Shown: one piece after another, positions 2,238 to 54,366 of the stretch
How the letters are laid out: every line of letters begins with the position of its first letter
How positions within the stretch are numbered: position 1 is the first letter of the stretch
Assembly (NCBI GenBank): GCA_032622095.1
Contig: CP136066.1
Span: 107,219,319-107,283,318 of the forward strand
Reading direction: 5' to 3'
From: Siphonodentalium dalli
Lineage: Eukaryota > Mollusca > Scaphopoda > Gadilida > Siphonodentaliidae
DNA length: 64,000 bases
The notes under the pieces: generated by a model
The model's input: the letters and a program-made list of their open reading frames with translations, nothing else
Databases searched by the model: none
Told to the model about the DNA's origin: nothing
Made by a program: the position numbers and the translations under genes

Positions 2238-15017
<12,780 letters not shown>

Positions 15018-27246: not shown

Positions 27247-28158
27247 ATGGTAGACACACCCATTTCTAATGTATTGGATATAACTCTTCTCGTTCTCGTA
27301 CTTCTTGGAATAATCTTGATCTCCTACTCCATATTATTCAAGCTCTGCAAAAAGTTTGTTATACCATCACTGTGGAAATATTCTCTCTACCTTCTGGATG
27401 TTTCATATCTGTTCCTTGATATAGGGCTGCTTATTTTCGTCACTTCCGGTTGGAGCGAAGAAGGAGTGACATGCCAATCATCAGGAGTCTTAATGCTTTT
27501 CGGAGTTCTACAGACGCCATGCGGATTGCTGATTTCGGAGGTTATCGTGACCTTTCTGCAGTCCCCTGGAAAGACTATGGAGACACCGAAGTATCTCAGG
27601 AAAATATTCTGCTATATCATACTACCAGTGACATTAATCACGTGTCTGTTATCTACTATACCAATGATTCCTACTCAATATTTTCTGAAAACAACCGACG
27701 ATTCTTCAGGATGCATATCTATATCACGTGATAATGCTTTCGAATTTGGAATTCTTCTGATCGTTCTTATATGGGCTGTGTTATTCGCGACTTCGTGCTT
27801 ATCTTTAGCAAGTGTTTTGAGACTTTGGAAAAGTTTCAATAATAGGATAAATTCGTCAAACGCTTCATCGAACACCCTTCAGATGAGGAATTCTAAACAT
27901 GGAAGGACTCTACAAATCGTGCTTATATCTGAGGAAATCGTATGGGTAGTAGCAATCTTGCTCAAGACACTCGCGCAATATTCAGATCTGATTTCAGGTT
28001 TTATGACTTCAACTGTGGCTCTTGTTTTAGCTGTGTCGATCCATTCGATACTGTCCTGCACCGAAAGCTTCCTGTTCTGTGATTCATGTTGTAGCATGGG
28101 AAATTCTAATTCCGAACCAGTCAGAAAGTTGAAGAAACTGGAGCTAATTAAGGTCGAG
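27247..28158 (+). CDS. Receptor exon 1: seven-transmembrane domain and kinase strand 1
   Basis: Encodes residues 1-304. The hydrophobic segments lie at about 11-33, 45-67, 79-105, 117-147, 166-193, 221-247 and 250-278. The extracellular N-terminus is only about ten residues, so any ligand would bind within the helices or loops. Inner loops carry FKLCKK, KYLRK and LRLWKSFNNR. Behind TM7, CDSCC offers palmitoylation sites. RKLKKLELIKVE, at the exon end, reads as the first kinase strand. The donor is GAG|GTGAGA at 28158/28159, phase 0. The pattern CQxxGxLxxFG in TM3 is loosely like cAMP-receptor-type GPCRs, but I would not assign a class. There are no DRY or NPxxY motifs. Confidence 0.88.
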
Positions 28159-31100
28159 GTGAGATATACACTGTTAATAAAATGGTACCAAACGAAGAAC
28201 CAATTAATAGTTGGTTATTAGGCGGCCGATTTGCAATGTGAGGTCTGAAAAACCAAATATGAGTAAATCGACACAGCTAGATTACTTTAATAAACCATAC
28301 AATATATACATAAAACAGAATTTCGGAGATCGTGAAAGAATACATAATTATATTGGCTACAGTTAAACGGACATGGCTCATTCGAACCCTAAAATTTATG
28401 TGTACGTAATTCGAGAAAAGGGGTCTCAAAACGTGCATATATATGCAAACTATTCCCGAGCTAATTCGTCGATATAGCGCTAAAAACGCGTTTTGTTCGG
28501 GGGTGGGGGTAGTAAAACATTTGCAGGAAGGTATGCCGGGGTGGTGGGAGGCCCGAGGGGCAAAAAACGCATTTTTTACACCCTCATGCAATTTTTATTA
28601 CTAAAGACCTTTTGTGCCCTTATATGACATTTGTAACAGTTTAAAACATATTATAAGAATTTATAACTGCAAAAACACCATAGTTATGTTACTGGGACCT
28701 CATATGGGCCTTAGTAGAGATGACATTGAGCTATATGGCATGTTGCATATGGGGCGGTGGGGTGAAAAAAATCCTTCCCGACAGTCTTCGGAAAGTAGAT
28801 TCGAGAAATGAAAACGGAAATAAATAAACTTGTCTTGATGTAACTAAAGCCAAGATCATTGTGTGCATGGAAAAAGAGCGAGCAACTGTCTCAAACATTA
28901 ATGTGACTATCAATGGCTAGAATATAAATGTCATCACACTGTTCATCAGTGCATCAAGCCAGTCAGTGAAATATTTGCATGTCTATCAATTCTGTTACTC
29001 TCACAACACCTAAAATATCCAAGTCTGGCATAGTGACTGTTTGTCATTTATTATAACAGAGGTTGCTCCAGTGGTCTAACAAAAGTGTTAAGGCATAATG
29101 CTAGATAATGGGCTGGTTGACAGACAAATCAGAAAATAGTTAGAAATTATGGAATTGTGTGTATCCTGTACAATGCCCTAAGTTTGCATATATAAGTAAA
29201 CTTGTCCTGATGTAACTAATGCCTAGATCATTGTGTGCATGTGAAAACAGCGAGCAACTGTCTCAAACATTAATGCGACTATCAATGGGTAGAATATATC
29301 TGTCATCAGTGCATCAAGCCAATCGGTGAATTTGCATGTCTTTCAACTCAGATGATCTCTCACAAGACCGAACGTATCCAAGTCTGGTATAGTGCCGTGA
29401 CTGCTTTTTCTCTCAGACCCCTGGACCGAGTTCAACCAAATTTGGTGTGGTGACTCGGGGTACCCTGTCGGATGTTCTAATGGAGTTAGTTTTTCAAAAA
29501 ATTTAATTAAAAAAAAAAAAAAAAATGGTTTTGTTAAATTGAGCAAGCAATTCAATCTTTAAAAAATATATATTAAAACAATATAAATGAAGGCTCTGTC
29601 TAAGATCAAAATGTTTGCGAAGTCCCACAAGGGGGGGGGGGGGGGCACAGGTATCTCCGATACTGAATATTATAGGCTCCCAAAGGGAGCCTAGCTGTTT
29701 CAGCTAGTTTAGTATAATACAAGTAAGTTGCTCCAGTAGAATAACATAAGTGGTATGGAATATGTTAGATAATGGGCTGGTTGACAGACTAGTCAGGAAA
29801 TAGTTAGAAATTATGAAATTTTGTGTATTCTGCACAATGACCTAGGTTTACAGATGATCAGCAATTTATAAAACAGGTTAAACTGTTATTTGAACTAATT
29901 GAGATAATCCCCAGTCATATGAGTGATATCAGTAGAGTTTTATGCGATTTTAGACCAATTTTAGTGAAATTTGGGGGGGGGGGGTGGGTGTAAAAAAATT
30001 GGGACTAAATTTTATTTTTTTTGCAGGTTTGGGGGTGGTAGGTCCCCGAAAATGCCAAATGCTAAAAAACGGCATACCTTCCTGCTAATTTTTTACTACC
30101 CCCCCCCGTTTTGTTTGTTATATTTTTGCGTAAATTTGATATCGTTTCGCTGTTCTGGTTAAATTTTTCTAATCAGCCGATGTTCCGAGCATAGAAATCG
30201 GATATATATATCCGATTTCTATGGTTCCGAGTGATGCCGGCAGCGCTCGTGTGTTTTCGGAAATAAGTGCATTCTCGATACCGCCATGTTTGTGACGTAA
30301 TATTTTCCAAGTTTCCCCAGCGTCTCTATCATTTTCGGTACGCGATAATGTGTTTCCGTCGGATCTTATTTGTCCATGCGATAATAATAACCTCTGTTGA
30401 CAACGATGTAACTATAGAACGGTTTTGCAGTTTGATACACAATGTCAACATGAATTTTAGTCATTTACATTGATCCTTGGAACACATTGATTTTTCTCAA
30501 ATATACTCTAATCGCAATTTTGTAGGCAATAATTTTCAGTTGAGTGTGTCGATGAACTGCAGTTAATTAAATTCCGTAGTTCTTTTTAAAGGTACTAAAT
30601 CCGATCAGACGGTCCCCATACCACCAAGATACAATAGCAACAACATTTCTTCAAGATACGCTTTATCAGAATCGATGTATTGCAAAAACATAATGCAAAT
30701 CACTGTCAACCATAGCATCAAATTTCCCAAAACTTGTTTATCAACATTTTGTTCAACAAAATATGGCCGTATTATCACTAAAGTATCACAAACATTTACC
30801 ACTTGACTTTAGAGTTATCCATCTTCATCCGCAATTTTGTCCGAGACCCTCCGTTTGACCACGTGTTTCTGGGCCACATGTTATTACACATCTCGAGAAG
30901 TAACAAACTTCAACAATCGATATCTGATCACTCTGAGCTCGAGCCAAATATTTTTTACCCCCGAAACCAAAGAAATAGTAATTTAGGAGCGTCTGATAGG
31001 ATTGAGTACCTATACCCAGGTGTTGAAAAATAAAAGATATCAAAAATCGATATCTGATAACTCTGAGCTTTGGTGGGTGGGGTCCTCGACTCAAGTCTAA

Positions 31101-34100
31101 TATTTTGGTAACCCCCGAAGCCAGAGAAACACTAATTTAGGACCGAAATGAAAATAGGGAAAATATGTTTCTACCTCTAATAAAAAGGAACGATATTGAA
31201 AACTGTCACTTCCCTGGTGACATATACTGGCATCCGTGTGGAGTTTAGAGTCTATATACAGACACAACCAGTATATACATATAGGTTGCTTGGAGCACTA
31301 AAAATCCAAGATGACCGCTTGCAGCTTTGTTTTTCCAAAATTGATGGCTCTCACCTAGAGGTCACCCTGAAGATACATATAAAGTTTGGTGATGTTCGAA
31401 TGAGGGATGTGGTCTGTAAGGTGTGCCAAAAGATTTAGGGTGCATTTACATTGCTATAGAAATGTATATAGATCTGTATGAAGTCACGTGTCGCGCATTA
31501 CTGTGATCACAACATGATTACCAATAGTGAACGCGCGCTGATCTGTACTCTGGTAATTGACAATTCACTGCGAGTCGTGTCAGTTTAGGCCAGACATAAA
31601 AATGTATCAACTATCAGCAGATAACAGCGATTTGGTATGTGCCGCATGTATTTAAAGTGTATCCTTATACCACTTGATAATGGTTCGAAGAAAGAATGAA
31701 AACCATGCAGTTACCCTACAACACCCTTTATTTGACCAAATGTAGTAAAATTTTCAACTGATGACAATTCCAATGACAATGTTAACCAATGTAGGACAAT
31801 ATTGTTTTCTTAAATTACATGCAGTTTGTATATATAGCTGTTAGACAATAAATATGATGATGATGACTGGCCACGGGGAGGGACCAGGACACAATCTTTC
31901 CAAGTGTTGGACATTTCCAACATTACATCCGCCCCTATGATAAGGTTGGAAAATTTCCAGCTAATTGGCCATTCCAGTCCAAAATTTTGATAAAAAGTAG
32001 GAAATTATGCAAATAGTGGTCCGAAAACAATACCCCCCCCCCCCAAATAAAATGTTTGAAAATCAAACTACAAGATCATTTTTAATCTATTGTTGGTTTG
32101 GAAATTACAACTAATGTTGTGTCAGGTATGAAATATCCAACCGTTGAACAAGTTGCCACGTCCCTATCCGTGTTCAATATTCGAAATACACGGGTTGAAA
32201 TGACAACGAAAACATTCGCCAAGCCCGAGTAACAATTAATCAAAACTGATTTGCCTGTCGCAATATATGGGCGTTGACCGTGACGTGTAGCGGTCACGAT
32301 TTGTGCTCACACGAACTAATACCGTTTTCTTTCTGTGTGCATTTCTATATCAACCCGTTTACACTGTCTGCGTGCAGATCTGTGTACATTTCTATAGCAA
32401 TGTAAATGCACCCTTAGTCATGCAAAGAGTAAAACACAAGTAACCATTTAGTGATATCACATACTAGTATTTGATTGTATGATATCATAAATTAATTTTA
32501 TGATATCAATAATTAGAATTGGTGATATCATATATTCATTTTGTGATATCAATAAATACCAGTTATTTTATTATATCAAATATTCTAATGTATTATATCA
32601 CTAATTCGTGCGCACGACAAACGTCCTTGGTAGCTGTGAGAAATCATTACATTTTTTGAGCTGATTTGATTTATTTATATAAATAATTCGAATTATTGAT
32701 ATCATAAAATGTTGGAGAATTAGCGAAATCATAAAATGAATTAAAAATATCACAAATTGGAATTAGCGATATCATAAATTTCGATATATGATATCACAAA
32801 ATAGTATGCATTTAGTATTATCAATAATTCGATTTTATGATATCATAAAATTATTTAATGATATCACGAAATCGCATGTGCAGCTATGCCATTTTATATT
32901 TATTTATATCACAAAATGAATTAGTGATATCACAAATTAAAATGTATGATATCACAAATTATCACAAAATCGATTATGTGATATATCTTGAGATAGTAAG
33001 CATTTAGTGATATCACAAATTCTATTATACGATATCATAAACTCAATTTGTGATATCACTTATTCGAATTTGTGATATCACAAAATATTTAATGATACCT
33101 TTGGATATCTATTGATATAATTTATTAGATTTTGGTATATAAAATTAATTATTGATATCACTAAATAAATAATAAGTAGAAGAACCGCGCCCCATACACA
33201 ACTATATTACATGCATCATTTCGTTCACATTTGTTCTAATTTGCAGAGCCAAGGTAGGATTCGCATGAGAGCGATGTGGGCCGATGATAAAAAGCAAATC
33301 ATGAAGGGGCTGATGAAGATATACGGTACCGATCACTCCAAATACTGGGCGCAGGAAATCGTCATCCTGGGAATGTTAAGGAGGGCCCACCACCCGAGTC
33401 TACTGAAATGTCAGTGGACACGAAGCAACAATCCATACTACGAAACAATGACGCTCATAACCGGCGAAATAATCACATATGATTCTCGGTGAGATATCAA
33501 CATATTTCATGAACATTGGGTCATATCTAAATGTACGTACTCAAAGAGTATTGCAGGTTAACTTCGCTCATATTGTGGATTGCAGCCATCCCACCACGGT
33601 CCAGGATAAAACCGTTACCATAGTTATGAATTTAATCCATGCACCGTATTTGACGTATTTCCTTTTAAAACTAGTCCATATTATGGGACCTATTTTGGAA
33701 TTTAATTGTTTCTCTGACCCGTAAATTAATCGGATTTTCAAATTTAGGAATCATTTTTACCAGTTTAATTTAAACTTGCAGAAAGCAGATTTTTATTTTT
33801 TGCACAAAATCGAATATTTATTAATATGCATGGATACAATTATTTCAGAATAATTTGCATGGAACTGACGAATGGCGGCACCATGAAGGACTTCCTGAGG
33901 AGGGTCCATCTGGCACTTCCAGAATCTTGCCAAAGAATAATCGTTCACGATGTGGCAGAAGGATTGTCCTATCTCCACAATCGGAACATATTACACAAAA
34001 ACATAACGTCTTCCTCCATATACCTCAAAGGATCAATCCAGGTAATGTAATAAGATCAATCCAGGTAATGTAATAAGATCAATCCAGGTAATGTAATAAG

Positions 34101-37100
34101 ATCAATCCAGGTAATGTAATAAGATGCCTAAATTCATTAAAAGTTTGCGGTTATTTGTTGAAATTGTGTAAACATGACTGCATCTCTGAAACGAATTGTA
34201 CATGTGTGAGCGTTAAAAGATTTAATTAACAAATATTCGCATTTTCTTTTCTTTTTTATTGGGTAATTTGTTTTTCAACGTTTTGCTAAATTTGTTTGTT
34301 TTTCCTTTGCTATTGTTGTTTTGTGTTAAACGTGTTTTTTCTCTATATGTTCGGCACTGATAATAGTTTGGCATCAACAAATCAGATTTAAAACTTTAAT
34401 GATGCTCTATTTCTTCCCGGCAGCACGTCCAACAACATCAATAACAACAACAAAATTTATATGAAAATCCTTTTCAATGCATGCTTCAATTATTATTAAC
34501 GAACTGGATAAGTGAAACAGCTGGAGCTGCATGCACGTACTTAAAGATGCATAATCCGTTTAAGCGTGCCTCAATTTCTATTTATTTGGATACGGGGGTA
34601 AAAAATATTTGATTCGGGTCGAGGAACCCACCTATCAAAGCTTAGCGTTATTAATGGCCCAATAAAAAGTCGACGAGCCGACGGTCTGGGACCAACTTGC
34701 GGATGAAGATGAATAACTCTAAAATCAAGAGACTTTGTGTTGATAACAAGGCCAAATTTCGTCGAACAACATGTTGATAAATAACACGTTTCGGGTAGTT
34801 TTATACTATAGTTGACAGTGGTTATTGTTTGGCAATTAATTAATCGATTCTGATAAGTGAAGCGGCATTTCTAAAATGTTTGTTGTTGTTGGAATCTGAT
34901 TATATGGGGACCATCGAATCGGATTTAGCAGAATTAATTCACTCAAACGTGGTTTAAAAGATAGATTTTAAATAATTTTTTTTTTTATAAAAATAGCCAC
35001 ATGTTCTGTCCCATTTCATATCGAATTATTGAAGAAAGTATTGTTTGCTATAGTGAACGAAGCTCCTTTGGACTGGTCTCTCTAAATAAATGTTTTTTAT
35101 TTCATAACCCCGGATCTTACAGAACGTTAGTGAAGGGTTAAGTTGGTCCAATACTCCCCGTTCTTTCGGAGTTTATTGACAGGCATGTTTTATTTCTAAA
35201 AGATATTCCGCGTCGACTAAGGAGTGCTTTCAACTGTATAGTTCACAGTCGATATACCACAAGAATGATTCTTTGTTGACCAACAATGGGCTATGCTGCG
35301 GGAATACTTGTTTTGTTCAATTAGAACAGGAACTTTTGTTGTGTGTCAAACAGTCAGTGAGTCAAAACGCAAAATTAAATGCATCAGAAAATCTGTTCAG
35401 AGCATATAAAGTTTCAATAAGTAGGCGGAATCATCCAAGTGGTAATCTAGATTTAAAGGTGTCATTTAGAAATTACTCACTGTATCGGTTGCACAAAGGA
35501 ACCAGTACACATTGTCGGTTAAGGGTCCATCTTGTGTTCCATGATTTATTTCAAACAAAGAACTTTCTTCATCTTTTTAATACTGGCTATAGTACAGAAA
35601 GACCAGTTATTGATTGCCCCCACCAAAGACAGGATCACAATTATGTCACGTTGCAATATTGTATGTGAATTACTTGTACCAAAATATCGCGTTTGCATAA
35701 CAGATATTATAGATATATCATTTTAAATCCATAGAGTTTTGATGTCTGCAATGTTATTGCATGGGTGAGTGGTCTGGAGAGAGCATACAGTTTTATGGTC
35801 ACTCAATATAAAACATGAAAGTAAGCTCGACACAACACGAAAGACGCAATATAATACCAGCATTTGTATTCAACCATTTGATATATTCTCTCACTGAATA
35901 CACTCCCATTGAATTACAATATAGCGACCGTTCGTCTGGAGATCAAAACACAGGAATTGATATATCTCTCGGCTTGCGAGTGACCTGATTGTTTAGTTAT
36001 AAGTGATCGATCGATTCACTGCCAGCTTTGATGTTGACATTTCATGTTTACACAAGTCAAGCTAGCATTAATAGTTCTGTTTAAAAAAGAAAGAAAGATA
36101 GAACATAAAAGCAATGTTAGCCATTGTTAAAATAAATAATATCCACTCATATGTACCTAGTCCTCAGTTTATTCTTATATTACACACAGTCTCTCCCAAG
36201 TACGGAAATTAGTCTTAAAACTAAAAGGACATAAATACATATAGACAAGGTTATAGAAATTATCCCAACAAGTGGCAGGAATAAATATAAATTACCAAAA
36301 CAAGATACTGTCCAGTATGGCGGCTAAGTTTGAATTATTCAGACGGCCTTTCTATCATCATATTTTAGAGAAACTTTTAGAAACTTGTGAATACTACTAT
36401 ACTATTTAAATAAAGAAAATTATTCTTGAATTTTATCACGTTTTTAAAAGCACCCAATTAGTTTTGTAAACCATTATCTTTGTTTGTCCAACAAATAATG
36501 TTAACCCACCACCGAAATTCACTAAATATGTCGCAATACGTTCTCGAATGTCGAGTGCAATATCAGCCATCCAACAAATGTTTACCTCATGTGTGAGTTT
36601 TGCATTGCAAATTTTGGGAAAGCAATTTTACTGGATTTTGGTGATTAGGGCAGAAGATATCCATGTTCTATTTGATGTTAACATAATCATTTCAAATGTT
36701 CAGCTAAATGTATACATCGGTAAGACGACAGTAGATTGTCCTATACACCTACGGGTATTACGACATATTTCATTAGAGTGTGAAAACTGAAATGGTCTAC
36801 TTGATTGTGAATTGACCCATTATGCCGCCCTTCTGCTGAATACAATCAGACGGCAGTGTGTATAGACATTCAACTACTGTTTCCATGGTAAATGTATAGA
36901 TATTCAACTACATACTTCAGGCATATATGGCAATATTCATTCAGAAATGAACCATAGGTGTCCAATCGGAAGTAACTCGGTCGCATCATATTATATATCT
37001 CGTTCCAGCATATGGTTTTGAGAGCCACTATCGGAGACTTCGAAGAAGCAGAAGTATTCGGACCACTGCAAAATGGCGACCTTTCAAAGACAATCAACAA

Positions 37101-43100: not shown

Positions 43101-46100
43101 ATTTCGACGAAATTTAAACCTATGGGTACTTTTGTCGGGGGAGTGTTTTGGACGGGTCAAATCATGACTCCGACCTTACCTTGACCTTCAAAATTGTTAA
43201 TTAAAGGTCAAGTGGGGTAAAACGGACGGATTTCGACGAAATTTGATACCTAGTGGTACTTTTCTCCGGGTGGGGGTGTTTTGGACGGGTCAAATCATGA
43301 CCCTGACCTGACCTTGACTTTCGAAATAGTCAATTGAAGGTCAAATCGCGCCTTTCGCCGGAAATCAGATGAGAAACATCCCGGACGAAGTCGGGCCCAT
43401 CAGCTTGTGTAATAAAGAAGACAGTTTGAAGAAAGTAATGTATAACACGAGAAACGTGAAAACTTGAAATATAGAAGTATGCAAATTTCCCACATAAAAT
43501 TTGAAAGCTAGTTTATAGAATGATTGTATTATAATTTATATTTATGGCTAATAATATGATCTTGGTGGCGTTACCATTTCTGACTATGGTTTTCTTGTTG
43601 GTTATATGCTACTTGTAAAGTTTGTTTATTGTGTCTTCTGTTGATAAAAATAACTTTCATTCCTGTTGTTTATGTGGAACGTTTAAAAAAAATTAAAAAA
43701 ATTTGACCATGGGTTTACATTTTTTCTGTGGTGTGCCAATTTCATTTGGTAAGTGTTTTTTTTCCGCCAGTAAATTTGACCATGTCATAACATTTTTATC
43801 TGCCGTGTGCCCATTTCATTTGGAACGTGTGGTGTTTTTTAAAGTAAATTTGACCACGAGTTTACATCGTTATCTGAGGTATGCCCATTTCATTTAGAAC
43901 GTGTGTTATTGCCTTCACGTCTTTAGCTGTGCTGTGCCCGTGTCAGTATTGGGAACGACGAAACAAAGTCTTACACAGAGAAACATGCAGGGTAACATCA
44001 AACCTAAATTAATGCCAAACAAGGACAAATCCAGTTGCATGGATGTGGATATCATGAATGATAACTCTATACTGTACACAATAACGTGTACACAAAAAAG
44101 GCATTGTCTCCCGATGACTTTGACATGGTATGATACCACATGCCGATAAGATGTTGTCGATAATATTTGCATTTTACAAAACAGACAAGAGACAATAAGG
44201 TACACACACTAGCCGTCCTCAACTTAAATCGGCTTTGTTAGGCATGTGTTATATAGTCGGTGAATATAAATACAGGCAATGCAACTGCACACACCACTTC
44301 ATTTTAAACAAATATACATGGGAATAATGACAATGTAGACACTTTGAAACGTTGGGCCTGACATTTCCAACTAAGATGTTATTTCGCGCTCCGCGTGTAT
44401 AATATTTAGCTGATTCTTGCTATACATGGGCCATGGGCGTTTTATTTATAGAAATGGGATTTTTTGGGACGGATTAAAAGTCGAACTGCGACCCGGAGGC
44501 CGAGTCCGGTAAAAGGTGTATAGTTGGAAATTTTGGTGAGATGCATGAGAAACCTTCAGTGACAAGCCGTATATATATAGTCGTAATAATTTGAAGGATT
44601 AGTTGTTTTAACGGAATTATGAGTTGGTCATTCGTGAAAACAATATATTTTATATTCTATAATTACAATCATGGGTATATAATGTATGAACTCGAGCGCG
44701 TTACCATTTATGACATTAGTTTTCTTGTGTGTTCTGTTATAAAAGTTGGATGGGTGGTGATCGAGACACAAATTAACACATATCCCCTGTCGTGTGTCTC
44801 TGCACATGATTAGTATATGCCCCTCCCTGATGCTCCCTCGTAGTTTTGATCGTACACGTGAAGTACAGCTGCATGGTGTCACCAAGCAACGGAACGATTC
44901 AAGAGAGTTGACATTTTTTTCATAACTATGAGCTGGTTCGCATATATTGGATATATAGGCTCAGCAATACAATACGTTATTTAAATGAAAGTGTCAATGA
45001 CACTGTAGCTCAACTTGGAAAGGGAATAATTTAATGTATTACAGTCAATGGAGCGATTAGGAATGTGGAAAGTTGAATGTCTAATACTAGTTTATCGACA
45101 TGAAGAGAAAAGTAAAATCCAAGATGGCTGCTGGCGGCCATGTTTTCGGCCGAATGACCCCAAAATGACTCGTTCCCATCTACATGTCAATATTAACATC
45201 CATGACAAATTTTATGATGATCAGACTAAAGGTACGACCTGTAGCCCGTGCTAAAGGATTTAGTCATACAAAGAGTGAAATCCAAGATGCCTGCTGGCGG
45301 CCATGTTTTTTGACCGAATGACCCCAAAATGACTCGTTCCCATCTACATGTCATTATTAACATTCATTACAAATTTTATGATGATCAGACTAAAGGTACG
45401 ACCTGTAGCCCGTGCTAAAGGATTTAGTCATACAAAGAGTAAAATCCAAGATGGCTGCTGGCGGCCATGTTTTTGGGCCAAATGACCCCAAAATTACTCG
45501 TTCTCATATACATGTCAATATTAACATCCATGACAAACTTTACGATGATCAGACGAACAGTACGACCTGTGGCCCGTGCTAATGGATTGAATTTTGAAAT
45601 CCAAGATGGCTGCTGGCGGCCATTTTTTTTTGTCCGAATGACCCCAAAATGACTCGTTCCCATCTACATTCCAATTTCAACAGCCATGACAAATTTTATG
45701 ATGATCGGACTAAAGGTACGACCTGTAGCCCGTGCTAAAGGATTTAGTCATACAAAGAGTAAAATCAAAGATGCCTGCTGGCGGCCATGTTTTTTGACCG
45801 AATGACCCCAAAATGACTCGTTCCCATCTAAATGTCATTGTTAACATCCATGACAAATTTTATGATGATCAGACTAAAGGTACGACCTGTAGCCTGTGCT
45901 AAAGAATTTAGTCATACAAAGAGTAAAATCAAAGATGCCTGCTGGCGGCCATGTTTTTGACCGAATGACCCCAAAATGACTCGTTCCCATCTACAAGTCA
46001 ATATTAACTTCCACGACAAATTTTATGATGATCAGACTAAAGGTACGACCTGTAGCCTGTGCTAAAGAATTTAGTCATACAAAGAGTAAAATCCAAGATG

Positions 46101-49100
46101 GCTGCAGGCCGCCATGTTTTTTGGCCGAATGACCCCAAAATTACTCGTTCCCATCTACATGTCAATATTAACATCCATGACAAATTTCATGATGATCAGC
46201 CGAACAGTACGACCTGTGGCCCGTGCTAATGGATTGAATTTTGAAATCCAAGATGGCCGCTGGCGGCCATTGTTTTTTGTCCGAATGACCCCAAAATGAC
46301 TCGTTCCCATCTACATTCCAATTTCAACAGCCATGACAAATTTTATGATGATCGGACTAAAGGTACGACCTGTAGCCCGTGCTAAAGGATTTAGTCATAC
46401 AAAGAGTAAAATCAAAGATGCCTGCTGGCGGCCATGTTTTTTTGACCGAACGACCCCAAAATTACTCGTTCCCATCTACATGTCAATATTAACATCCATG
46501 ACAAATTTGATGATGATCAGACTAAAGGTACGACCTGTAGCCCGTGCTAAAGAATTTCGTCATACAAAGAGTAAAATTCAAGATGGATGCTGGCCGCCAT
46601 GTTTTTTGGCCGAATGACCCGAAAATTACTCGTTCTCATATACATTCCAATTTCAACAGCCATGACAAATTTTATGATGATCGGACTAAAGGTACGACCT
46701 GTAGCCCGTGCTAAAGGATTTAGTCATACAAAGAGTAAAATCAAAGATGCCTGCTGGCGGCCATGTTTTTTTGACCGAACGACCCCAAAATTACTCGTTC
46801 CCATCTACATGTCAATATTAACATCCATGACAAATTTGATGATGATCAGACTAAAGGTACGACCTGTAGCCCGTGCTAAAGAATTTCGTCATACAAAGAG
46901 TAAAATCCAAGATGGCTGCTGGCCGCCATGTTTTTTGGCCGAATGACCCGAAAATTACCCGTTCTCATATACATGTCAATATTAACATCCATGACAAATT
47001 TCATGATGATCAGACAAACAGTACGACCTGTGGCCCGTGCTAATGGATTGAATTTTGAAATCCAAGATGGCCGCTGGCGGCCATGTTTTTTGTCCGAATG
47101 ACCCCAATATGACTCGTTCCCATCTACATGTTATTATCAACATTTCTGACAAATTTTATGATGATCGGACTAAAGGTACGACCTGTAGCCCGTGCTAAAG
47201 AATTTAGTCATACAAAGAGTAAAATCCAATATGGCTGCTGGCCGCCATGTTTTTGGGCCAAATGACCCCAAAATTACTCGTTCCCATCTACATGTCAATA
47301 TTAACACCCATGACAAATCTCATGATGATCAAACGAACAGTACGACCTGTGGCCCGTGCTAATGGATTGAATTTTGAAATCCAAGATGGCTGCTGGCGGC
47401 CCTTGTTTTTTGTCCGAATGACCCCAAAATGACTCGTTTCCATCTACATTCCAATTTCAACAGCCATGACAAATTTCATGATGATCGGACTAAAGGTACG
47501 ACCTGTAGCCCGTGCTAAAGGATTTAGTCATACAAAGAGTAAAATCAAAGATGCCTGCTGGCGGCCATGTTTTTTTGACCGAACGACCCCAAAATTACTC
47601 GTTCCCATCTACATGTCAATATTAACATCCATGATAAATTTGATGATGATCAGACTAAAGGTACGACCTGTAGCCCGTGCTAAAGAATTTCGTCATACAA
47701 AGAGTAAAATTCAAGATGGATGCTGGCCGCCATGTTTTTTGGCCGAATGACCCGAAAATTACTCGTTCTCATATACATTCCAATTTCAACAGCCATGACA
47801 AATTTTATGATGATCGGACTAAAGGTACGACCTGTAGCCCGTGCTAAAGGATTTAGTCATACAAAGAGTAAAATCAAAGATGCCTGCTGGCGGCCATGTT
47901 TTTTTGACCGAACGACCCCAAAATTACTCGTTCCCATCTACATGTCAATATTAACATCCATGACAAATTTGATGATGATCAGACTAAAGGTACGACCTGT
48001 AGCCCGTGCTAAAGAATTTCGTCATACAAAGAGTAAAATCCAAGATGGCTGCTGGCCGCCATGTTTTTTGGCCGAATGACCCGAAAATTACCCGTTCTCA
48101 TATACATGTCAATATTAACATCCATGACAAATTTCATGATGATCAGACAAACAGTACGACCTGTGGCCCGTGCTAATGGATTGAATTTTGAAATCCAAGA
48201 TGGCCGCTGGCGGCCATGTTTTTTGTCCGAATGACCCCAATATGACTCGTTCCCATCTACATGTTATTATCAACATTTCTGACAAATTTTATGATGATCG
48301 GACTAAAGGTACGACCTGTAGCCCGTGCTAAAGAATTTAGTCATACAAAGAGTAAAATCCAATATGGCTGCTGGCCGCCATGTTTTTGGGCCAAATGACC
48401 CCAAAATTACTCGTTCCCATCTACATGTCAATATTAACACCCATGACAAATCTCATGATGATCAAACGAACAGTACGACCTGTGGCCCGTGCTAATGGAT
48501 TGAATTTTGAAATCCAAGATGGCTGCTGGCGGCCCTTGTTTTTTGTCCGAATGACCCCAAAATGACTCGTTTCCATCTACATTCCAATTTCAACAGCCAT
48601 GACAAATTTCATGATGATCGGACTAAAGGTACGACCTGTAGCCCGTGCTAAAGGATTTAGTCATACAAAGAGTAAAATCAAAGATGCCTGCTGGCGGCCA
48701 TGTTTTTTGACCGAACGACCCCAAAATGACTCGTTCCCATCTACATGTTATTATCAACATTTATGACAAATTTTATGATGATCAGACTAAAGGTACGACC
48801 TGTAGCCCGTGCTAAAGGATTTAGTCATACAAAGAGTAAAATCCAAGATGGCTGCTGGCGGCCATGTTTTTGGGCCAAATGACCCCAAAATTACTCGTTC
48901 CCATCTACATGTCAATATTAACATCCATGACAAATTTGATGATGATCAGACGAAAGGTACGACATGTAGCCCGTGCTAAAGAATTTAATCATACAAAGAG
49001 TAAAATCCAAGATGCCTGCTGACCGCAATGTTTTTTGGCCGAATGACCCGAAAATTACTCGTTACCATCTACATGTCAATATTAACATCCATGACAAATT

Positions 49101-52100
49101 TCATGATGATCAGACGAACAGTACGACCTGTGGCCCGTGCTAATGGATTGAATTTTGAAATCCAAGATGGCCGCTGGCGGCCATGTATTTTGTCCGAATG
49201 ACCCCAAAATGACTCGTTCCCATCTACATTCTAATTTCAACAGCCATGACAAATTGTATGATGATCGGACTAAAGGTACGACCTGTAGCCCGTGCTAAAG
49301 GATTTAGTCATACAAAGAGTGAAATCGAAGATGCCCGCTGGCGGCCATGGTTTTTGGCCGAATGACCCCAAAATGACTCGTTCCCATCTACATGCCATTA
49401 CTAACATTCTTGACAAATTTTATGATGATCAGACTAAAAGTACGACCTGTAGCCCGTGCTAAAGAATTTAGTCATACAAAGAGTAAAATCCAAGATGGCT
49501 GTTGGCGGCCATGTTTTTAGGCCAAATGACCCGAAAATTACTCGTTCCCATCTACATGTCAATATTAACATCCATGACAAATTTCATGACGATCAGACAA
49601 ACAGTACGCCCTGTAGCCCGTGCTAATGGATTGAATTTTGAAATGCAAGATGGCCACTGGCGGCCATGTTTTTTTACCGAATGACCCCAAAATTAATCAT
49701 TTTGGTCTAAATGTTGATGTCAACAGCTATGACAAATTTTATAATGATCCGACCAAAGGTACGACCTGTAGACTGCATTGTTGACGCATTACGTACACAC
49801 GTACACACGGACGACAAAGCCATGGCAATAGCTCAAACTTTACAAAGTAAAGTTGAGCTAAAAATAGGACCACAACCAAAGGCACTAGCATTAGCGTAAA
49901 CAGTTACAAGTTGTGTAACATTATCTCCCAACGATAGCAGTGTAAGCTATCGATCGAAATGTTGATATATTCAACGAGCTTTCGTTGTCGTTTTAAGAGC
50001 CTTTTGAATTATTGATGTCCACGTGGATTTCATCTCGAGGTACTTGTGACGTGGGTATCATAACGCAGCTAGGATGCCATTTCTCCCGGTGAAAATACAG
50101 GATACCGATAATCCTAAATACAATACATTGCCATATTCTATATCCCTGGTGTCGATTCCTGCATGGTCACTATTGGTGACGTATATATCGTGCGTGTAGT
50201 TCTGCCTGTGTTAGATCATACCACGAATGTGTACCCTGCATGGATACTATGCGCCCTTAGTGATCATATTCCACCAGTATCATAGGAACATTTTGATGAT
50301 CTGACGGGGAACATTATAATATCGAACAAATATCGTAGGCAGTATATGCTGTTTTTTCTTCTCCAAGCAACGTATATGGTGTTGTTGTTGTCACCAAGCA
50401 ACGGAACGATTCATGGGCAGTTGATCAAATTTGGTATGTGGGTTTATCAGCTCAAAGCACAGGTCATGTTCGAATATGGGTTAGGTCCCATGTTACCGGA
50501 GTTATGGCCCCTTTTCGACTTAGCATCCGTCCGTCCGTGCGGAAAGTTTCCGGATGAGAACTTTATGTTGGGCTATCGGATCGAAACTAAATATGGTATG
50601 TGAGTTTATCAAAACTGAAAACACAGGTAATGTTCGAATTTGGGTTAGGTCCGCCCATTTTTGCCGGAGTTATGGCCCCTGTTGGCGATGATAACTTTAG
50701 TTTAGTGTTTGTATTAATCCGATTGTTTTTAAATTTGGTATGTGGATTAACCACAGGAAGATACAGGTCAAGTTCGAATTTGGGTTTGGTCCGCCTATTT
50801 TGGCTGGAGTTATGGTCCTTGTCGACTTAAAATTTGCCGATTATTTTGGTTTCCGGATATCTTTATTTTTAGTTATCTGATATTTTTTTTAATTCAACAG
50901 AATCTCTTGATATTTGGTACATGGTTCAAATTTCTGAAGACAAAAAGGCCAAGTTTAAATTTATGGTCACGGTCCGATGAATTTTGACAAGAGTTAAACG
51001 AGAGGCCGATCACGATCGGCAGATGTTAACCCATCCCTTGGCGATAGTAAATTACTATGATCGGAATCATAAATGAGAGTGGTGGTGAATTATAGAGTAT
51101 ACTGTTATGTACTATTATAGACAAATGTACATAACACAAATTATTGGAATTTATGGGTCACTCGCATTTATATAAGAGAATGCACTGGTACAGCTAAACC
51201 ACCACAGCCTTGTATTAAATGCGAAAGGTGGCCTGGACATGGAATACTTGGGTTAAGAGAGTCCAATTTAAGTTTACAATAATAATGTATCAAATTCTAC
51301 CAACAATATAGTATAGAGATAAGCCACCTCACTGCTGACCCATTAATATCAATTATATAGCAGAGCTGTCAACAAATCACAAGAATTGTTTATGTTGAAC
51401 ACTGACTTCTCTATTCAACCAATAACAATTATAATGACCTCAGACCATCTGAAGATATCACTCTACATCACAGATGTCCATGTCTACTGTTAATACCATG
51501 TGATGTTTATTGTTGAATCTTTATTTAAATTAGATACCATAGCTTTCTTTATCAGATTATTTGCACATCAATTGGCATAAGAGACATCAGAAAATAATAT
51601 AGCCTTATCAATAGATAAGTAGTCCAAAGGCATGGGAATGGGATGAAATTGGTGAATTGGGTTTAAAGTTGCTCCAAACAAATTTACCAGTACATTACAC
51701 AAGATTATGGACCGATTTAAAGCAAATTTGGTGTGGTGACCCTTGGCAGAGTTATAATGGTGTTAGTTTTTCAAATTTTGTTACTTTAAAATTAAATTTT
51801 TTTTTTTTTTAATTATTTAAACAAAAAATATTTTATTATATATTATTTTTATTTATTTATTCATATTCAAGTTTTTTTTTGTGGTTAAATTAAATTTTTT
51901 TTTAAGTGAATATATTTTTTCGAAAAAGGGCCATAACTCAGTTAAATATATTCGGATCAAACCCATATTCGAACTCGATCTGTATTTTGGACTAAGAAAC
52001 TCACATACCAATATTTGAGTTATCGCACCATGCGTAAAGTGTCTACAGACAGACAGACGGACTAACGACGAGTGGTCAATCCGGATTGACCACTCGTCGT

Positions 52101-54366
52101 TAGTCCGTCTGTCTGTCTGTAGACACTTTACGCATGGTGCAATAACTCAAATATTGGTATGTGAGTTTCTTAGCCCAAAATACAGATCGAGTTCGAATAT
52201 GGGTTTGATCCGAATATGGGTAAACATAAAAAGCTATCCTTACTAAAAAGCCACTTTTTCGGGGGACAAGTGGTCGGCGACCTTTTATTTTAAATGAAAA
52301 TGTCAACGTGGAGAGAGGGTCATGTCATACATTACAGTCAATGGTGTGATAAGGAAAGTTTAAATGTTTAAGTAATACCGGCCAGCTAGAGGTCAACCCG
52401 CACAGCCATGTAACCTTTGGGATTAATTGGATAATAAACTGCCAAATTGTATATGCCACCTTGAAGTGATCCTGAAGATGCCTGTAAATTTTCAAAACAT
52501 TTCTCCAATAAATGTCGACTGCAGGGTGTGCCGATGGATTCAAAAGTGAAATCCGAGATCGCTGCAAGCGGACATGTAATGTTTTTTTTAACAAAATTCG
52601 GAAAATTAGATGGCTCACAGGAGATTCATATGAAGTGTTGGAGATGCTCGGATGAGTGATGTGGTCTATATGGTGTGCCAAAGGATTTACTCACAAAGAG
52701 TAAACTCCAAGACGGCTGCCGGCGGCCATATTTTTCATCAAATTTTTTTCAAAATGTATAGCTCCCATCTAGAGGTGATCCCAAACATGTCTGTAAATTT
52801 TCAATAAATGCGGGTTGCGGGGTGTGCTGATGGATTCAAATCTGAAATTCAAGATGGCTGCTGTCGGCCATGTTTTTAAAACAAATTTCGGGGAAAAAAT
52901 CTATGGTTCCCATGCATCGAAATGTCACCCGAAGATCCTTATGAACTTGAAGTTTGGTGACGATTGGAGGAGAGATTTTGCCTGCATGGTGTACTAAAGG
53001 AGTTTGTCGACAGACGCGCCACACACAGCTAGAAGCCAACCCATGGCATTATTTTACAATGTCAAGTTGGGCTTAAATGGAACACCGGCGACAAAAGCAG
53101 TTCAAGATTACATTCTCACGGGTAATCAATTCATGTTTATCACGAAATTGGTTCATAAAAGTCGCCTAAATTATGAAATTTATTGCAATTTTTTTGTGAA
53201 TTTTATAGTTGTTTTTTTATTTCGCTCTTGCGACAGATCGCGTGAGGTTCTCGTGAGGGTGAGGCTAACCATTTGGGAAATATTGAGCTTTTGCGATGGC
53301 TCATTTCTTCAATAAAATGAATTTTATCTCCAGATAAATCATCAATGTTTTGTCCACTACGGCAGAGATACGCAAGCCTGAACGATAAAATCCTGTCTGG
53401 CTGAACTGTATGTATACCTGCATACGCGGGTTGTCATGAACATTTAGTTGCCTAATGTTCACCCCATTTTTCCGCTGCGTTCCTGTGTATATATGTCAAT
53501 ATCTTTTTTGGTAATGGTAAACGATCGTTTTGGGATTTATTTCCATAAATACCAAACACTGACACGACAGCATTAATGAATGGTATCGTGTAACAACCAT
53601 TACGCGAGTATTCAGTTGTATCGATGACACGAACTGAACAAAATTTCGGCCTTCACCTGCCTTCACAATAAATTTAGTTAAAGACCCACGGTCCGATCTG
53701 ACACCACATTAGTCAAACTTTCATAAGGTAAACTTCAGCTTACCAGGCACAAACACAAATAAATATATTTGCTATCACCACAGTTTGTAAGAAACAGATA
53801 TCGTGAAAACCCACAAAAGCAACCATTGTTGAAAATGACTACAAAACATTCTGATGCATAACGCTCTTTATTATCTACTGCCTTTGGAAAAGGAATTCAT
53901 GGATGCTCTTTATCGGGATAGATTATCGGAATTTTTGCCAGCTTGACAAAATTCAAAATGCATTTAAACTTTCCATGTGTAGGTCGATATAATGACAAAC
54001 AAACCTACTATTAATGGACTAATTGGCACGATCTAGTCATTTTCTGATATATAGAAGGCGTACTAATGGTAGTTTTATGGCGTCACCATTTATTTTTTAA
54101 ATAAAAAGCTGAAAATTCCAAAGATTGCATGCTAAAAATAAAGCAGATTGTTCGAACAACGATCGAGTGAGCCGAAAAATGACTATGTTCCAGCTGTATG
54201 TTCCATAAGTTGTGGACATCAATAGACTTTTATTGTCAATGTATACTTCATTTTTCAGCTATTAAACATAATACAGGAATGCTGGGTCTTGGAGAAACCC
54301 CCAACATCTGACGATTTAGTGGAAATGCTCACAGACACAGACCCAATGCCAGAAACAGAACTATGA
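27247..54366 (+). CDS. Seven-transmembrane receptor fused to a pseudokinase with a giant C-lobe insert (six exons)
   Basis: Exons 27247-28158, 33247-33488, 33849-34041, 37009-38056, 38598-41440 and 54259-54366 join in phase to 5,346 nt (1,781 residues). Residues about 11-278 form seven hydrophobic helices. C76 (start of TM3) and C156 (loop 2) could form the usual GPCR disulphide, and loops rich in Lys/Arg predict the C-terminus in the cytosol. The kinase fold follows TM7 at once: strand 1 about 297-304, K324 (IMK), E341 (AQEIVIL), hinge MELTNGG at 389, HKNITSSSIYL at 434 in place of HRDxKxxN, GDFE at 458 in place of DFG, DIRSFALVTLELL at 487. About 1,200 polar, disordered residues follow. Helices G to I then close the domain (IIQECW, PPTSDDL). 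The ATG has a good context (AAAATGG) and follows an in-frame stop. It is probably a catalytically dead signalling scaffold. GPCR class and ligand are unknown. Confidence 0.82.
28826..29850 (+). repeat. Tandem duplication (~370-bp unit) with later insertion
   Basis: Block A (CTTGATGTAACTAAAGCCAAG, ATCATTGTGTGCATG, GAGCAACTGTCTCAAACATTA) occurs at about 28833-29040 and 29200-29400. Block B (GTTGCTCCAGT, TAGATAATGGGCTGGTTGACA, AGTTAGAAATTATG) occurs at 29050-29175 and 29725-29850. The second A-B pair is split by about 320 bp that include a poly-A tract (about 29510) and a poly-G tract (about 29632). Confidence 0.75.
29954..30115. repeat. Poly-G and poly-C rich tract
   Basis: Runs of G near 29972 and of C near 30101, with TTTTTTTTGCAGG between them. 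The G- and C-runs can pair, giving a weak fold-back of about 140 bp. An open frame across it is accidental. Confidence 0.45.
30182..30231. mobile_element. Perfect 34-bp palindrome flanked by 8-bp direct repeats
   Basis: 30190-30223 (CATAGAAATCGGATATA followed by its exact reverse complement) is a perfect 17+17 palindrome. It is flanked on both sides by GTTCCGAG (30182-30189 and 30224-30231). The arrangement looks like a target-site duplication around a minimal inverted-repeat insertion; an 8-bp duplication is the hAT length. It is not recognised as a known element. Confidence 0.6.
30585..31145. mobile_element. Element B, rearranged copies
   Basis: TTTAAAGGTACTAAATCCGAT at the left and AGGATTGAGTACCT near 31010, with B-family interior words (GGTCCCCATACCACCAAGAT, GAGCCAAATATTTTTTACCCC, GAAACCAAAGAAATAGTAATTTAGGA). 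The latter block appears twice (about 30950 and 31100), suggesting tandem or nested partial copies. Confidence 0.6.
31300..31437 (-). repeat. Satellite-like monomer, split by the Harbinger-like insertion
   Basis: AAATCCAAGATGACCGC, CTAGAGGTCACCCTGAAGAT and GGTGTGCCAAAAGATTTA match the diverged satellite monomers, in the orientation of the array at 45-50 kb. The next expected word, GTCATGCAAAGAGTAAAA, resumes at 32417 on the far side of the insertion. Confidence 0.65.
31438..32413. mobile_element. Harbinger-like non-autonomous element with TTA target duplication (976 bp)
   Basis: Both ends carry the inverted repeat GGGTGCATTTACATTGCTAT, continuing AGAAATGTA, then (after a mismatch) CAGATCT-type sequence, about 38 bp in all. 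The element is bounded by TTA at 31435-31437 and 32414-32416, giving a 3-bp TWA duplication typical of PIF/Harbinger. The flanking satellite word GATTTA|GTCATGC is restored when the element and one TTA are removed. No transposase frame is seen inside, so it must have been mobilised in trans. Confidence 0.8.
32440..33175. repeat. AT-rich array of TGATATCA palindromes
   Basis: About 18 GATATC sites in some 730 bp, most as (A/G)TGATATCA(C/T) and spaced about 25-40 bases, separated by AAATT/AATTCG-like spacers. The array ends 70 bp before the second receptor exon. The word is self-complementary, so each unit can base-pair with every other. Confidence 0.75.
33247..33488 (+). CDS. Receptor exon 2: kinase N-lobe
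   Basis: Encodes residues 305 to 385 (split codon). The acceptor is TAATTTGCAG at 33237-33246 and the donor is CG|GTGAGA at 33488/33489. SQGRIRMRAMW corresponds to the Gly-loop and strand 2, with only one of the usual three glycines (G307). KKQIMKGL carries the candidate ATP-anchoring Lys (K324), and YWAQEIVILGML holds the helix-C Glu (E341). HHPSLLKCQW matches the HPNIL-type strand-4 approach. Confidence 0.85.
33489..33848 (+). other. Receptor intron 2 (360 bp)
   Basis: GT-AG intron, starts GTGAGA and ends TATTTCAG. No repeat or regulatory element recognised. Confidence 0.7.
33849..34041 (+). CDS. Receptor exon 3: hinge to catalytic-loop position
   Basis: Encodes residues 385-449. IICMELTNGGTMKDFLRR is a typical strand 5-hinge-helix D of TK/TKL kinases. 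HDVAEGLSYLHNRNIL is helix E. HKNITSSSIYL sits where active kinases have HRDLKxxNILL: the catalytic Asp is Asn (N436), the loop Lys is Thr (T438) and the Mg-binding Asn is Ser (S441). The donor CAG|GTAATG at 34041/34042 is the first of four tandem copies. Confidence 0.88.
34031..34127 (+). repeat. 23-bp tandem repeat carrying four copies of the exon 3 splice donor
   Basis: GATCAATCCAGGTAATGTAATAA starts at 34031, 34054, 34077 and 34100. Each copy contains CAG|GTAATG, so potential donors lie at 34042, 34065, 34088 and 34111. Using any but the first adds GTA ATG TAA and stops translation just after residue 451. Confidence 0.9.
34128..37008 (+). other. Receptor intron 3, remainder
   Basis: Ends TCTCGTTCCAG at 37008. 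Apart from a diverged element B at about 34545-34935, it holds AT-rich sequence without recognised repeats or exons. Open frames at 35273-35668 and 36548-36790 lack splice or motif support. Confidence 0.55.
34545..34935. mobile_element. Element B, diverged copy 5
   Basis: ACTTAAAGATGCATAATCCG at the left and ATGGGGACCATCGAATCGGAT at the right, with AAAAAATATTTGATTCGGGTC, GAGGAACCCACCTATCAAAGC and AACTCTAAAATCAAG inside. Diverged and shortened relative to copies 1 and 2. Confidence 0.65.
37009..38056 (+). CDS. Receptor exon 4: DFE motif, helix F and start of insert
   Basis: Encodes residues 450 to about 798. VLRATIGDFEEAEVF is the strand 8-DFG region with DFG changed to DFE (D459 kept). Only 27 residues separate it from DIRSFALVTLELL (487-499), the DxxSFG helix F, so the activation segment is short and has no APE. 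From about 505 the protein becomes polar and low in hydrophobics: Ser-rich, with SPSRGSTKSP and acidic DDSWDSDSTDSY (CK2-like) stretches. The acceptor is at 37008 and the donor is CAAG|GTACGT at 38056/38057, phase 1. Minus-strand frames here are shadows. Confidence 0.85.
38057..38597 (+). other. Receptor intron 4 (541 bp)
   Basis: GT-AG intron starting GTACGT and ending TGCTTCAG. No repeat recognised. Confidence 0.7.
38598..41440 (+). CDS. Receptor exon 5: long disordered insert and helix G
   Basis: Encodes residues 799-1746 in one uninterrupted 2.84-kb frame. Composition is Ser/Thr/Asn/Asp/Glu/Lys/Arg-rich with few hydrophobic residues, typical of an intrinsically disordered linker. Visible short motifs include EEYIFLDDDE at about 1097, a DSGIES phosphodegron-like site (1289-1294), YVDL twice (1322 and 1370), basic SRGRTKIKR and SPTRRY stretches, and DSGVG near the end. 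The last 20 residues (FNIMASKLTQ, AGKLTHIGQQ) resume the kinase fold as helix G. Donor CAG|GTGAGT at 41440/41441, phase 0. Conservation of an open frame this long argues for a real coding exon. Confidence 0.88.
41630..42370. repeat. Tandem duplication (~485 bp) containing 16-bp TATTCCGAAGGTT units
   Basis: CGCTATTCCGAAGGTT-type 16-bp units run at 41650-41710 and 42125-42250. Both runs are followed by TTTTTGTTATTTTNAGGTTAA, TTCTATATTCTAAAGTATTG, GGGTTCATTATCAC(A/G)AAGAT and, further on, AACATTAAATGTG. It is two diverged copies of a unit of about 485 bp. The 16-bp core is close to the one in the fold-back at 62850-63920. Confidence 0.7.
42371..42845. other. Intronic, nothing recognised
   Basis: Unremarkable AT-rich intron sequence with a duplicated CATTACGTATGAC near 42361 and 42443. 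Confidence 0.4.
42846..43360. repeat. 130-bp tandem repeat (4 copies) rich in TGACCTTGACCTT
   Basis: AATTT(G/A)A(T/A)ACCTA-like starts at 42851, 42981, 43111 and 43241 give a 129-130 bp period. Each unit has TTTTGGACGGGTCAAATC, (A/G)CCTTGACCTT and AAGGTCAA(A/T)T, that is, AGGTCA-type half sites in both orientations. Confidence 0.8.
43361..44384. other. Intronic, mostly unrecognised; fragment of repeat E at 43520-43625
   Basis: TTATAATTTATATTTATGGC, AATATGATCTTGGTGGCGTTA and CCATTTCTGACTATGG match the second half of repeat E. Between 43700 and 43915 there are three spaced TGCC(A/C)ATTTCATTT(A/G)G(A/T)A-like words about 90 bp apart, a small tandem repeat. Confidence 0.5.
44385..44885 (+). repeat. 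Dispersed repeat E, copy 2
   Basis: CGCGCTCCGCGTGTATAA, GGGATTTTTTGGGACGG, TTAAAAGTCGAACTGCGACC, CGGAGGCCGAGTCCGGTAAA and later GAGTTGGTCATTCGTGAAAA, CTCGAGCGCGTTACCATTT follow the order seen at 23150-23735. Confidence 0.65.
44985..49861 (-). repeat. Satellite-bearing terminal-repeat element, copy 2 (inverted, larger)
   Basis: Reverse-complement counterpart of 2426-4892. The left end ATGAAAGTGTCAATGACACT, GTAGCTCAACTTGGAAAGGG matches the right end of copy 1. The right end ACTTTACAAAGTAAAGTTGAGC (about 49838-49859) matches the left end of copy 1, preceded by GACGACAAAGCCATGGCAAT. Around 28-29 monomers of about 160 bp lie between (CCAAGATGGCTGCTGGCGGC, GACTCGTTCCCATCTACATG, GGTACGACCTGTAGCCCGTG), in two alternating types. 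The array is about twice as long as in copy 1, partly by a recent duplication. Frames reading RPVARAKGFSH etc. are by-products. Confidence 0.85.
46290..48555 (-). repeat. Higher-order tandem duplication, two 1,133-bp units (7 monomers each)
   Basis: The segments beginning near 46290 and 47423 repeat with an offset of exactly 1,133 bases. Matching landmark frames start at 46333/47466, 46587/47720 and 47247/48380, and the same variant words recur in both (AAATCAAAGATGCCTGCTGG, TCACATACAT-like variants, CCAATATGGCTGCTGGCCGC). Divergence seen by eye is a handful of bases. Confidence 0.8.
50330..51050. repeat. Dispersed repeat G-like block (GTTCGAAT(A/T)TGGGTTAGGTCC units)
   Basis: Three to four units carry TTTGGTATGTG(A/G)GTTTATC, AC(A/T)CAGGTCA(T/A)GTTCGAAT, TTGGGTTAGGTCCG and GGAGTTATGGCCCC, spaced about 140-170 bases. 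It ends with AACGAGAGGCCGATCACGATC, GGCAG at about 51000, also found near 57560. Confidence 0.55.
51051..51940. other. Intronic, nothing recognised except small tails and an A/T tract
   Basis: TATATAAGAGAATGCACTGG near 51170 matches the hairpin family tail. 51780-51910 is an AT-only tract with long T runs. Confidence 0.45.
51948..52217. repeat. 270-bp perfect-looking palindrome (two inverted repeat G ends)
   Basis: Centred on TCCGGA at 52080-52085. The left arm (ATTCGGATCAAACCCATATTC, TTTGAGTTATCGCACCATGCG, AGACAGACAGACGGACTAAC) is mirrored by the right arm with only a few mismatches. Each arm is a copy of repeat G, so the structure is two G ends joined head to head. Confidence 0.8.
52540..53010 (-). 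repeat. Diverged satellite-like monomers
   Basis: Two to three units with AGTGAAATCCGAGATCGCTGC, GGTGTGCCAAAGGATTTACTC, TCCCATCTAGAGGTGATCCC and ATTCAAGATGGCTGCTGTCGG. They are the same family as 9820-10330, in the orientation of the 45-50 kb array. Confidence 0.6.
53011..54258. other. Intronic, nothing recognised
   Basis: End of receptor intron 5. AT-rich sequence with no repeat family found elsewhere in the window, leading into the polypyrimidine/AG at 54251-54258. Confidence 0.5.
54259..54366 (+). CDS. Receptor exon 6: terminal kinase helices H-I and stop
   Basis: Encodes residues 1747-1781 (LLNIIQECWVLEKPP, TSDDLVEMLTDTDPM and an acidic tail) and TGA at 54364-54366. IxxCWxxxxxxPPTxxxLVxxL is the end of a TK/TKL kinase domain (CW...RPTFxxLVxxL). 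The usual Arg of RPTF is Pro here. That Arg normally pairs with the APE Glu, which is also absent, so both partners are lost together. The acceptor TTCATTTTTCAG (54247-54258) keeps phase 0. The exon is too short to stand alone as a gene, but the motif is unmistakable. Confidence 0.82.
   Translation, partial: LLNIIQECWVLEKPPTSDDLVEMLTDTDPMPETEL

Follow-up and report, generated by a model that had tools for sequence, protein, structure and literature searches.

Van den Hoogen et al. (2018; PMC5784254) report GPCR-TKL proteins from oomycetes and amoebozoans and describe metazoan GPCR bigrams as rare or nonexistent. In a 2025 eLife survey, as far as its text was available, GPCR-TKL/K proteins are reported only from acanthoecid choanoflagellates and GPCR-TK proteins are found in choanoflagellates and sponges, with none in other metazoan lineages when tyrosine-kinase queries were used (PMC12716839). 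Such queries need not detect the molluscan family described here. With sponges the only animals to which that text ascribes GPCR-tyrosine-kinase fusions, it bears out the view of an earlier note on this DNA that a 7TM protein joined to a pseudokinase falls outside the standard receptor classes of animals. In the main text of the oyster kinome paper, as available, the terms 'gpcr', '7tm', and 'pseudokinase' each have 0 occurrences (PMC4883820), and literature on a molluscan receptor-pseudokinase family was not found in a search whose scope left out preprints and most subscription journals. As far as these sources go, GPCR-kinase fusions are known already in oomycetes, amoebozoans, choanoflagellates, and sponges.

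The window, the whole stretch of 64,000 nucleotides of Siphonodentalium dalli DNA analysed here, carries a single six-exon gene (27247-54366, + strand) with a product of 1781 residues (Table 1). Each of the five introns is GT-AG and the phases are compatible throughout, giving one continuous frame, in agreement with the earlier proposal that exon 2 joins exon 1 in phase. Scored with an approximate matrix against the 3547 GT sites that the window contains, the exon 1 donor, GAG/GTGAGA, outranks more than 99.7%, and the stop-free runs of 336, 369, and 976 codons have chance expectations of about 5e-7, 5e-8, and 2e-26, respectively. The 7TM domain is entirely on exon 1, together with the putative first kinase strand, and exon 2 carries on in phase. 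No second copy of the gene was found within the window at E 0.01.

Several repeats were observed in and around the gene. The end of exon 3 lies in a perfect 4.1-copy tandem repeat of 23 bases (34031-34125), which duplicates the exon's own donor, CAG/GTAATG. Intron 5 contains a near-perfect, spacer-free palindrome (51948-52217) with two 135-base arms that are 99% complementary, and a similar 164-base repeat forms two arrays, one in this intron (45111-49771) and one near the window start in the opposite orientation (2673-4465). Arrays of 16/32-base units based on CTTCGGAG and its complement are present at 63581-63915 and 62849-63054.

Table 1. Coordinates in the window of the exons and of the protein features discussed in the text. 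Counts are of rows in the 33-row alignment, or of proteins where stated.
Feature	Residues	Position	Strand	Content or conservation
Exon 1	1-304	27247-28158	+	7TM domain, post-TM7 cysteines, LELIKVE segment (taken as kinase strand beta1)
Exon 2	305-384 plus 2 bases	33247-33488	+	Degenerate glycine loop, beta2, beta3, alphaC, beta4
Exon 3	385-449	33849-34041	+	beta5 to catalytic-loop region
Exon 4	450-798	37009-38056	+	DFG region, shortened activation segment, alphaF, start of insert
Exon 5	799-1746	38598-41440	+	Polar insert with short conserved motifs, then start of conserved C-terminal region
Exon 6	1747-1781 and stop	54259-54366	+	Conserved end (LLNIIQECW...LVEML), C-terminus ETEL
TM helices 1-7	5-34, 41-66, 74-104, 114-140, 161-200, 210-246, 249-277		+	On exon 1
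Cys76, top of TM3	76	27472-27474	+	Cys in 25/29 non-gap rows
Cys156, second outer loop	156	27712-27714	+	Cys in 26/30 non-gap rows
Cys281-Cys282, post-TM7	281-282	28087-28092	+	Cys in 30/31 and 29/31 non-gap rows
K328, beta3 (VAIK) lysine	328	33316-33318	+	31/31 non-gap rows
E341, alphaC glutamate	341	33355-33357	+	32/32 non-gap rows
HKN replacing HRD	434-436	33994-34002	+	Catalytic Asp in 0/32 non-gap rows
DFE replacing DFG	459-461	37036-37044	+	33/33 rows
DSGIES	1289-1294	40067-40084	+	DSG(F/I)x(S/T) in 32/33 proteins (all but P0026)
Basic block RRYQELTKKGVPLKVS	within 1449-1476	40547-40630	+	(K/R)RYxELxxKGxPLR, strongly conserved across six representatives compared
ETEL, C-terminus	1778-1781	54352-54363	+	PDZ-ligand pattern in 30/33 proteins

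When the full window model was compared with about 5.8 billion proteins, scoring the 7988 candidates sharing most words with it, 28 relatives were identified (E 1.9e-175 to 7.3e-104). A profile search headed by an octopus protein, in which 7998 such candidates were scored, returned 20 rows, all of the receptor-pseudokinase family, of which four were new (E 5.5e-89 or better). Of the resulting 32 relatives, 25 carry a species name and every one of these is a mollusc; because only candidates sharing most words were scored, the family may also occur in annelids, brachiopods, and other phyla. By class, the named entries comprise 17 from bivalves, 6 from gastropods, and 2 from cephalopods, with one match per named species except for two in Mytilus edulis. 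In the databases the relatives are called uncharacterized, hypothetical, or unnamed proteins, some are protein-kinase-domain-containing, and one, from Plakobranchus, is named LRRK2. Exon 1 alone, used as a protein-search query, gave 2667 candidates and none at E <= 10, its length limits (about 167-532 residues) having shut out full-length relatives. A maximum-likelihood tree was built on 596 columns from 31 sequences, two of the 33 being omitted because fewer than half of their columns were filled. In it the gastropods group together (support 100), as do the cephalopod-type sequences (100), and Solemya is placed weakly (48). The window sequence adjoins the long branch of the cephalopods (support 92), a position that may reflect long-branch attraction.

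Both parts of the protein are present in 26 of the 32 relatives, each of which fills 255 or more of the 275 columns for the 7TM domain and 190 or more of the 206 for the kinase. Part or all of the 7TM domain is missing from P0021, P0025, P0026, P0027, P0031, and P0032, the last of which is also without most of the kinase. The earlier note had held that the membrane and kinase parts are one protein, and had asked whether related genomes might have them as separate genes; among the proteins found, the opposite is seen. Seven relatives come from a source marked 'lgn', in which the longest contigs are 3.8-6.8 kb and have uninterrupted reading frames, against a 27 kb span for the window gene, and these are therefore taken to be assembled mRNAs. 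In four of them (P0003, P0010, P0020, and P0029, on contigs of 5-6.5 kb) the 7TM and kinase parts are both present. The alignment is ungapped over the 12 residues that bridge exons 1 and 2 (298-309) in 27 of 28 relatives, the remaining one, P0027, beginning within them.

These observations bear on two ways in which the fusion could be only apparent. There might be two adjacent genes, or a transcript of the 7TM domain only, with the kinase starting elsewhere. An in-frame ATG is present just upstream of exon 2, and reading through the exon 1 donor leads to a stop (28219-28221). AATAAA occurs nearby, at 28176 and 28289, which makes a short, 7TM-only isoform possible. As an account of the locus this is nevertheless extremely improbable, given that the two parts occur together across the family, including on the four mRNA-sized contigs, and that the junction residues are unbroken. 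Alternatively, gene prediction might have merged neighbouring genes in the relatives, which are mostly predicted proteins of genome assemblies. Such an artefact is scarcely credible, since the same join is found in many separate assemblies with conserved residues across it, the mRNA-sized contigs concur, and the putative beta1 strand of the kinase sits on the 7TM exon. The gene product is almost certainly a receptor and pseudokinase fused in one protein.

For the receptor part, hydropathy averaged over 26 members of the family has seven peaks, supporting the seven helices proposed previously. Net loop charge alternates over the same members, with -1.1, -0.5, -1.3, and -0.3 for the outer loops, +2.5, +2.0, and +3.7 for the inner loops, and +3.4 for the tail, so that the inner loops are positive, as had also been noted. 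The predicted topology is N-out, C-in, the orientation being taken from charge alone. An AlphaFold2 model of exon 1, built from an alignment that included 27 relatives, has seven helices, a pLDDT of 80.2, and a pTM of 0.81. Among the matches listed for this model in the PDB, GPCRs account for 50 of 50 Foldseek rows and 50 of 50 VIA rows, mostly of class A (LGR4, glycoprotein hormone receptors, NTSR1, and adrenergic receptors), with class B (GLP-1R, PTH1R) in a few of the Foldseek rows listed. The Cys76/Cys156 pair, a TM3-ECL2 feature of class A, is placed as in GPCRs, in keeping with the earlier reading, yet is missing from four cephalopod-type rows. In TM2, the 28 non-gap rows at position D51 have Asp in 25 cases and Asn in 3. 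The DRY motif of class A is not present at the end of TM3, where QNPGK, YNPGK, or similar is found. The cysteines following TM7 (Cys281-Cys282) are a possible palmitoylation site.

No Pfam 7tm family was detected in the 12 members scanned (E up to 10), and the 7TM profile had no sequence matches in the PDB (E up to 10). Since there are GPCR fold matches but no sequence match to any GPCR, the exon 1 domain is, on the modelled structure, a GPCR-fold domain outside any assigned GPCR class. Single-member Pfam matches (MASE1 at E 7.6e-4 in 1 of 12 members, and ten other families more weakly) were scattered and were dropped, and spike proteins of the PDB that matched exon 1 through a cysteine-rich tail, none better than E 0.5, were judged to be chance matches.

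The window protein matches both PF07714 and PF00069 over the Pfam cut-offs. For PF07714, with a cut-off of 23.1, a construct lacking the insert scores 40 bits and residues 1-505 score 35.2. Of five relatives scanned, every one exceeds the PF07714 cut-off, whereas for PF00069 two exceed it, two fall short, and one is unlisted. The best matches of the window protein in the PDB using phmmer are TYK2, KSR, and LIMK1. A profile of 22 relatives gave 31 PDB rows, of which 25 are LIMK, LRRK2, or MLKL, five are PLK4 or ULK2, and one is an unnamed kinase. In terms of the TKL and TK groups the signal is mixed, as are the fold rows.

The folded relative was a Solemya protein (P0026, 984 residues) without TM1-2 and the C-terminus. 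In its model, five TM helices lead into beta1-3, alphaC, beta4-5, alphaD, alphaE, beta7-8, and alphaF, in kinase order, and all 50 of the Foldseek matches listed are kinases (best E 3e-4). Confidence is low to intermediate, with a mean pLDDT of 51.2, ten-residue means of 40-80 in the kinase core, and values mostly below 50 past alphaF. The LELIKVE segment, previously suggested to be the first kinase strand, is indeed a strand in this model, but the model of exon 1 by itself has a helix there (292-303), at low confidence.

Residues were counted in the 33-row alignment, in which P0032 begins near the catalytic region. The beta3 lysine is K328, rather than K324 as had been supposed; the alphaC glutamate was correctly placed at E341. 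At the position of the HRD Asp, the 32 non-gap rows have Asn in 28, His in 2, Lys in 1, and Arg in 1. The catalytic Asn is found in 0 of 33 rows, and the DFG motif keeps its Asp in 33 of 33 and its Gly in none, the latter being Glu in all. No [AS]PE motif is present within 45 residues of GDFE in any of the 33, and within loop positions 304-309 the sole conserved Gly is Gly 307 (31 of 32). With catalytic residues missing throughout the family, the kinase-like domain is, to judge by its motifs, a pseudokinase, as first proposed. It might instead be an active, atypical kinase receptor, phosphorylating in spite of the missing motifs. The VAIK Lys, alphaC Glu, and DFG Asp are kept in every non-gap row, and it is possible that they leave weak catalysis or nucleotide binding; set against the loss of the HRD Asp, the catalytic Asn, the DFG Gly, and [AS]PE, and against a glycine loop with one conserved Gly, an active kinase is very unlikely.

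Conservation is uneven along the protein. Identity to the window protein is 44-65% in the kinase part (28 relatives), 24-33% in the 7TM domain (the 27 having any), 16-21% over the aligned columns of the insert (28 relatives), and 38-52% in the last 90 residues (11 relatives). That the kinase part is conserved best suggests that it carries the main function. This, along with the lack of DRY, counts against classical G-protein-coupled signalling in which the pseudokinase tail would be merely a scaffold for trafficking or desensitisation. The GPCR fold, with listed matches mainly of class A, and the positive inner loops are as expected of a classical receptor, and such signalling is therefore a serious if rather unlikely alternative to output through the pseudokinase.

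The insert that separates alphaF from the conserved C-terminus is 698-1350 residues long in 32 of the 33 proteins (P0026 stops early), and is mostly polar and poorly conserved. It contains short conserved blocks such as KARxALKRAL, (K/R)RYxELxxKGxPLR, and DSG(F/I)x(S/T). The second of these corresponded to no Pfam family when the window pieces and five relatives were scanned. The DSGIES of the window protein fits the beta-TrCP phosphodegron pattern DSG-hydrophobic-x-S, and the ETEL C-terminus the class I PDZ ligand pattern, S/T-x-hydrophobic, the exceptions in the family being P0025 (TETL) and P0026 and P0032 (other ends). Neither the DSG motif nor the PDZ-ligand pattern featured in the earlier note.

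The conserved C-terminal region, of about 90 residues, looks like kinase alphaH-alphaI (CW...PP...LV..L). Residues 1720-1781 had previously been thought to fold with the kinase, a suggestion that finds no statistical support: alignment to KSR gives 1.1-2.0 bits, a C-terminal profile has no PDB matches at E <= 10, and no Pfam kinase family is found in the region across 12 members. The idea is retained as a resemblance, from which the region may supply the last kinase helices. As nothing in the C-terminus matches a kinase significantly, it is conjecture that the insert splits a kinase fold.

The best explanation, in which we have moderate confidence, is that a GPCR-fold 7TM domain drives a TKL/TK-like pseudokinase acting as an allosteric scaffold. 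The cytoplasmic side of the 7TM domain passes into the pseudokinase some 13-20 residues past TM7. A ligand would move the 7TM helices, the faster-changing 7TM domain being the putative sensor, and the shift would be transmitted to the adjoining N-lobe of the kinase. The pseudokinase, presumably incapable of phosphate transfer, would then alter its binding to a partner kinase or scaffold, and this conserved domain would be the output, in the manner of the pseudokinase domains of KSR or JAK, which act as allosteric scaffolds. The PDZ tail may anchor the receptor, phosphorylation of the DSG motif may mark it for turnover by SCF-beta-TrCP, and the C-terminus, going by its resemblance, may close the kinase fold. 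More tentatively, and with rather less confidence, we propose a mollusc-wide receptor class in which a GPCR fold signals directly to a built-in pseudokinase scaffold and not to a G protein, possibly with a C-lobe closed over a thousand-residue loop by far C-terminal helices that bear the PDZ anchor, this last on resemblance only. Output could be through a G protein instead.

The fusion is kept in bivalves, gastropods, and cephalopods, and such receptors therefore exist in bilaterian animals too, some of them culturable. Whether a 7TM domain can act by driving a pseudokinase thus becomes testable, and an orphan receptor is named in commercially important shellfish.

Among known systems, some can be told apart by their domains. 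Scanning the window pieces and five relatives with Pfam revealed no PIPK family, the hallmark of GPCR-PIPK, no RGS family, the hallmark of GRK, and no cyclase domain. A GRK has an RGS-homology domain and an AGC kinase without a 7TM domain, whereas the molluscan protein has a 7TM domain and no RGS. Receptor guanylate cyclases, according to the available part of the oyster kinome paper, are likewise membrane receptors with a catalytically inactive kinase-like domain (PMC4883820); unlike the molluscan receptor, they are single-pass and have a cyclase domain.

The layout of the GPCR-TKL bigram, a 7TM domain N-terminal to a protein kinase domain, is that of the 26 relatives with both parts. Oomycete GPCR-TKL proteins, as far as described in the text available, have in one protein a 7TM domain and then a C-terminal TKL-type kinase, some with a DEP domain (PMC5784254); Pfam detects no DEP domain in the five relatives scanned. 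The molluscan kinase differs from theirs in being without catalytic residues and in being followed by a very long insert. Choanoflagellate GPCR-TKL/K proteins, compared by their architecture as described in the available text, share a 7TM domain and a TKL-like kinase (PMC12716839). The GPCR-TK proteins of choanoflagellates and sponges are also GPCR-kinase fusions, in animals from sponges, but in the same text their kinases match metazoan tyrosine kinases, whereas the molluscan family has mixed TKL and TK matches and has lost its catalytic residues. In this last respect the molluscan receptor is like KSR, JAK JH2, and MLKL, which are among its sequence, profile, or fold matches and have a kinase fold without the full catalytic motifs; it is unlike them in that its kinase fold is fused to a 7TM domain.
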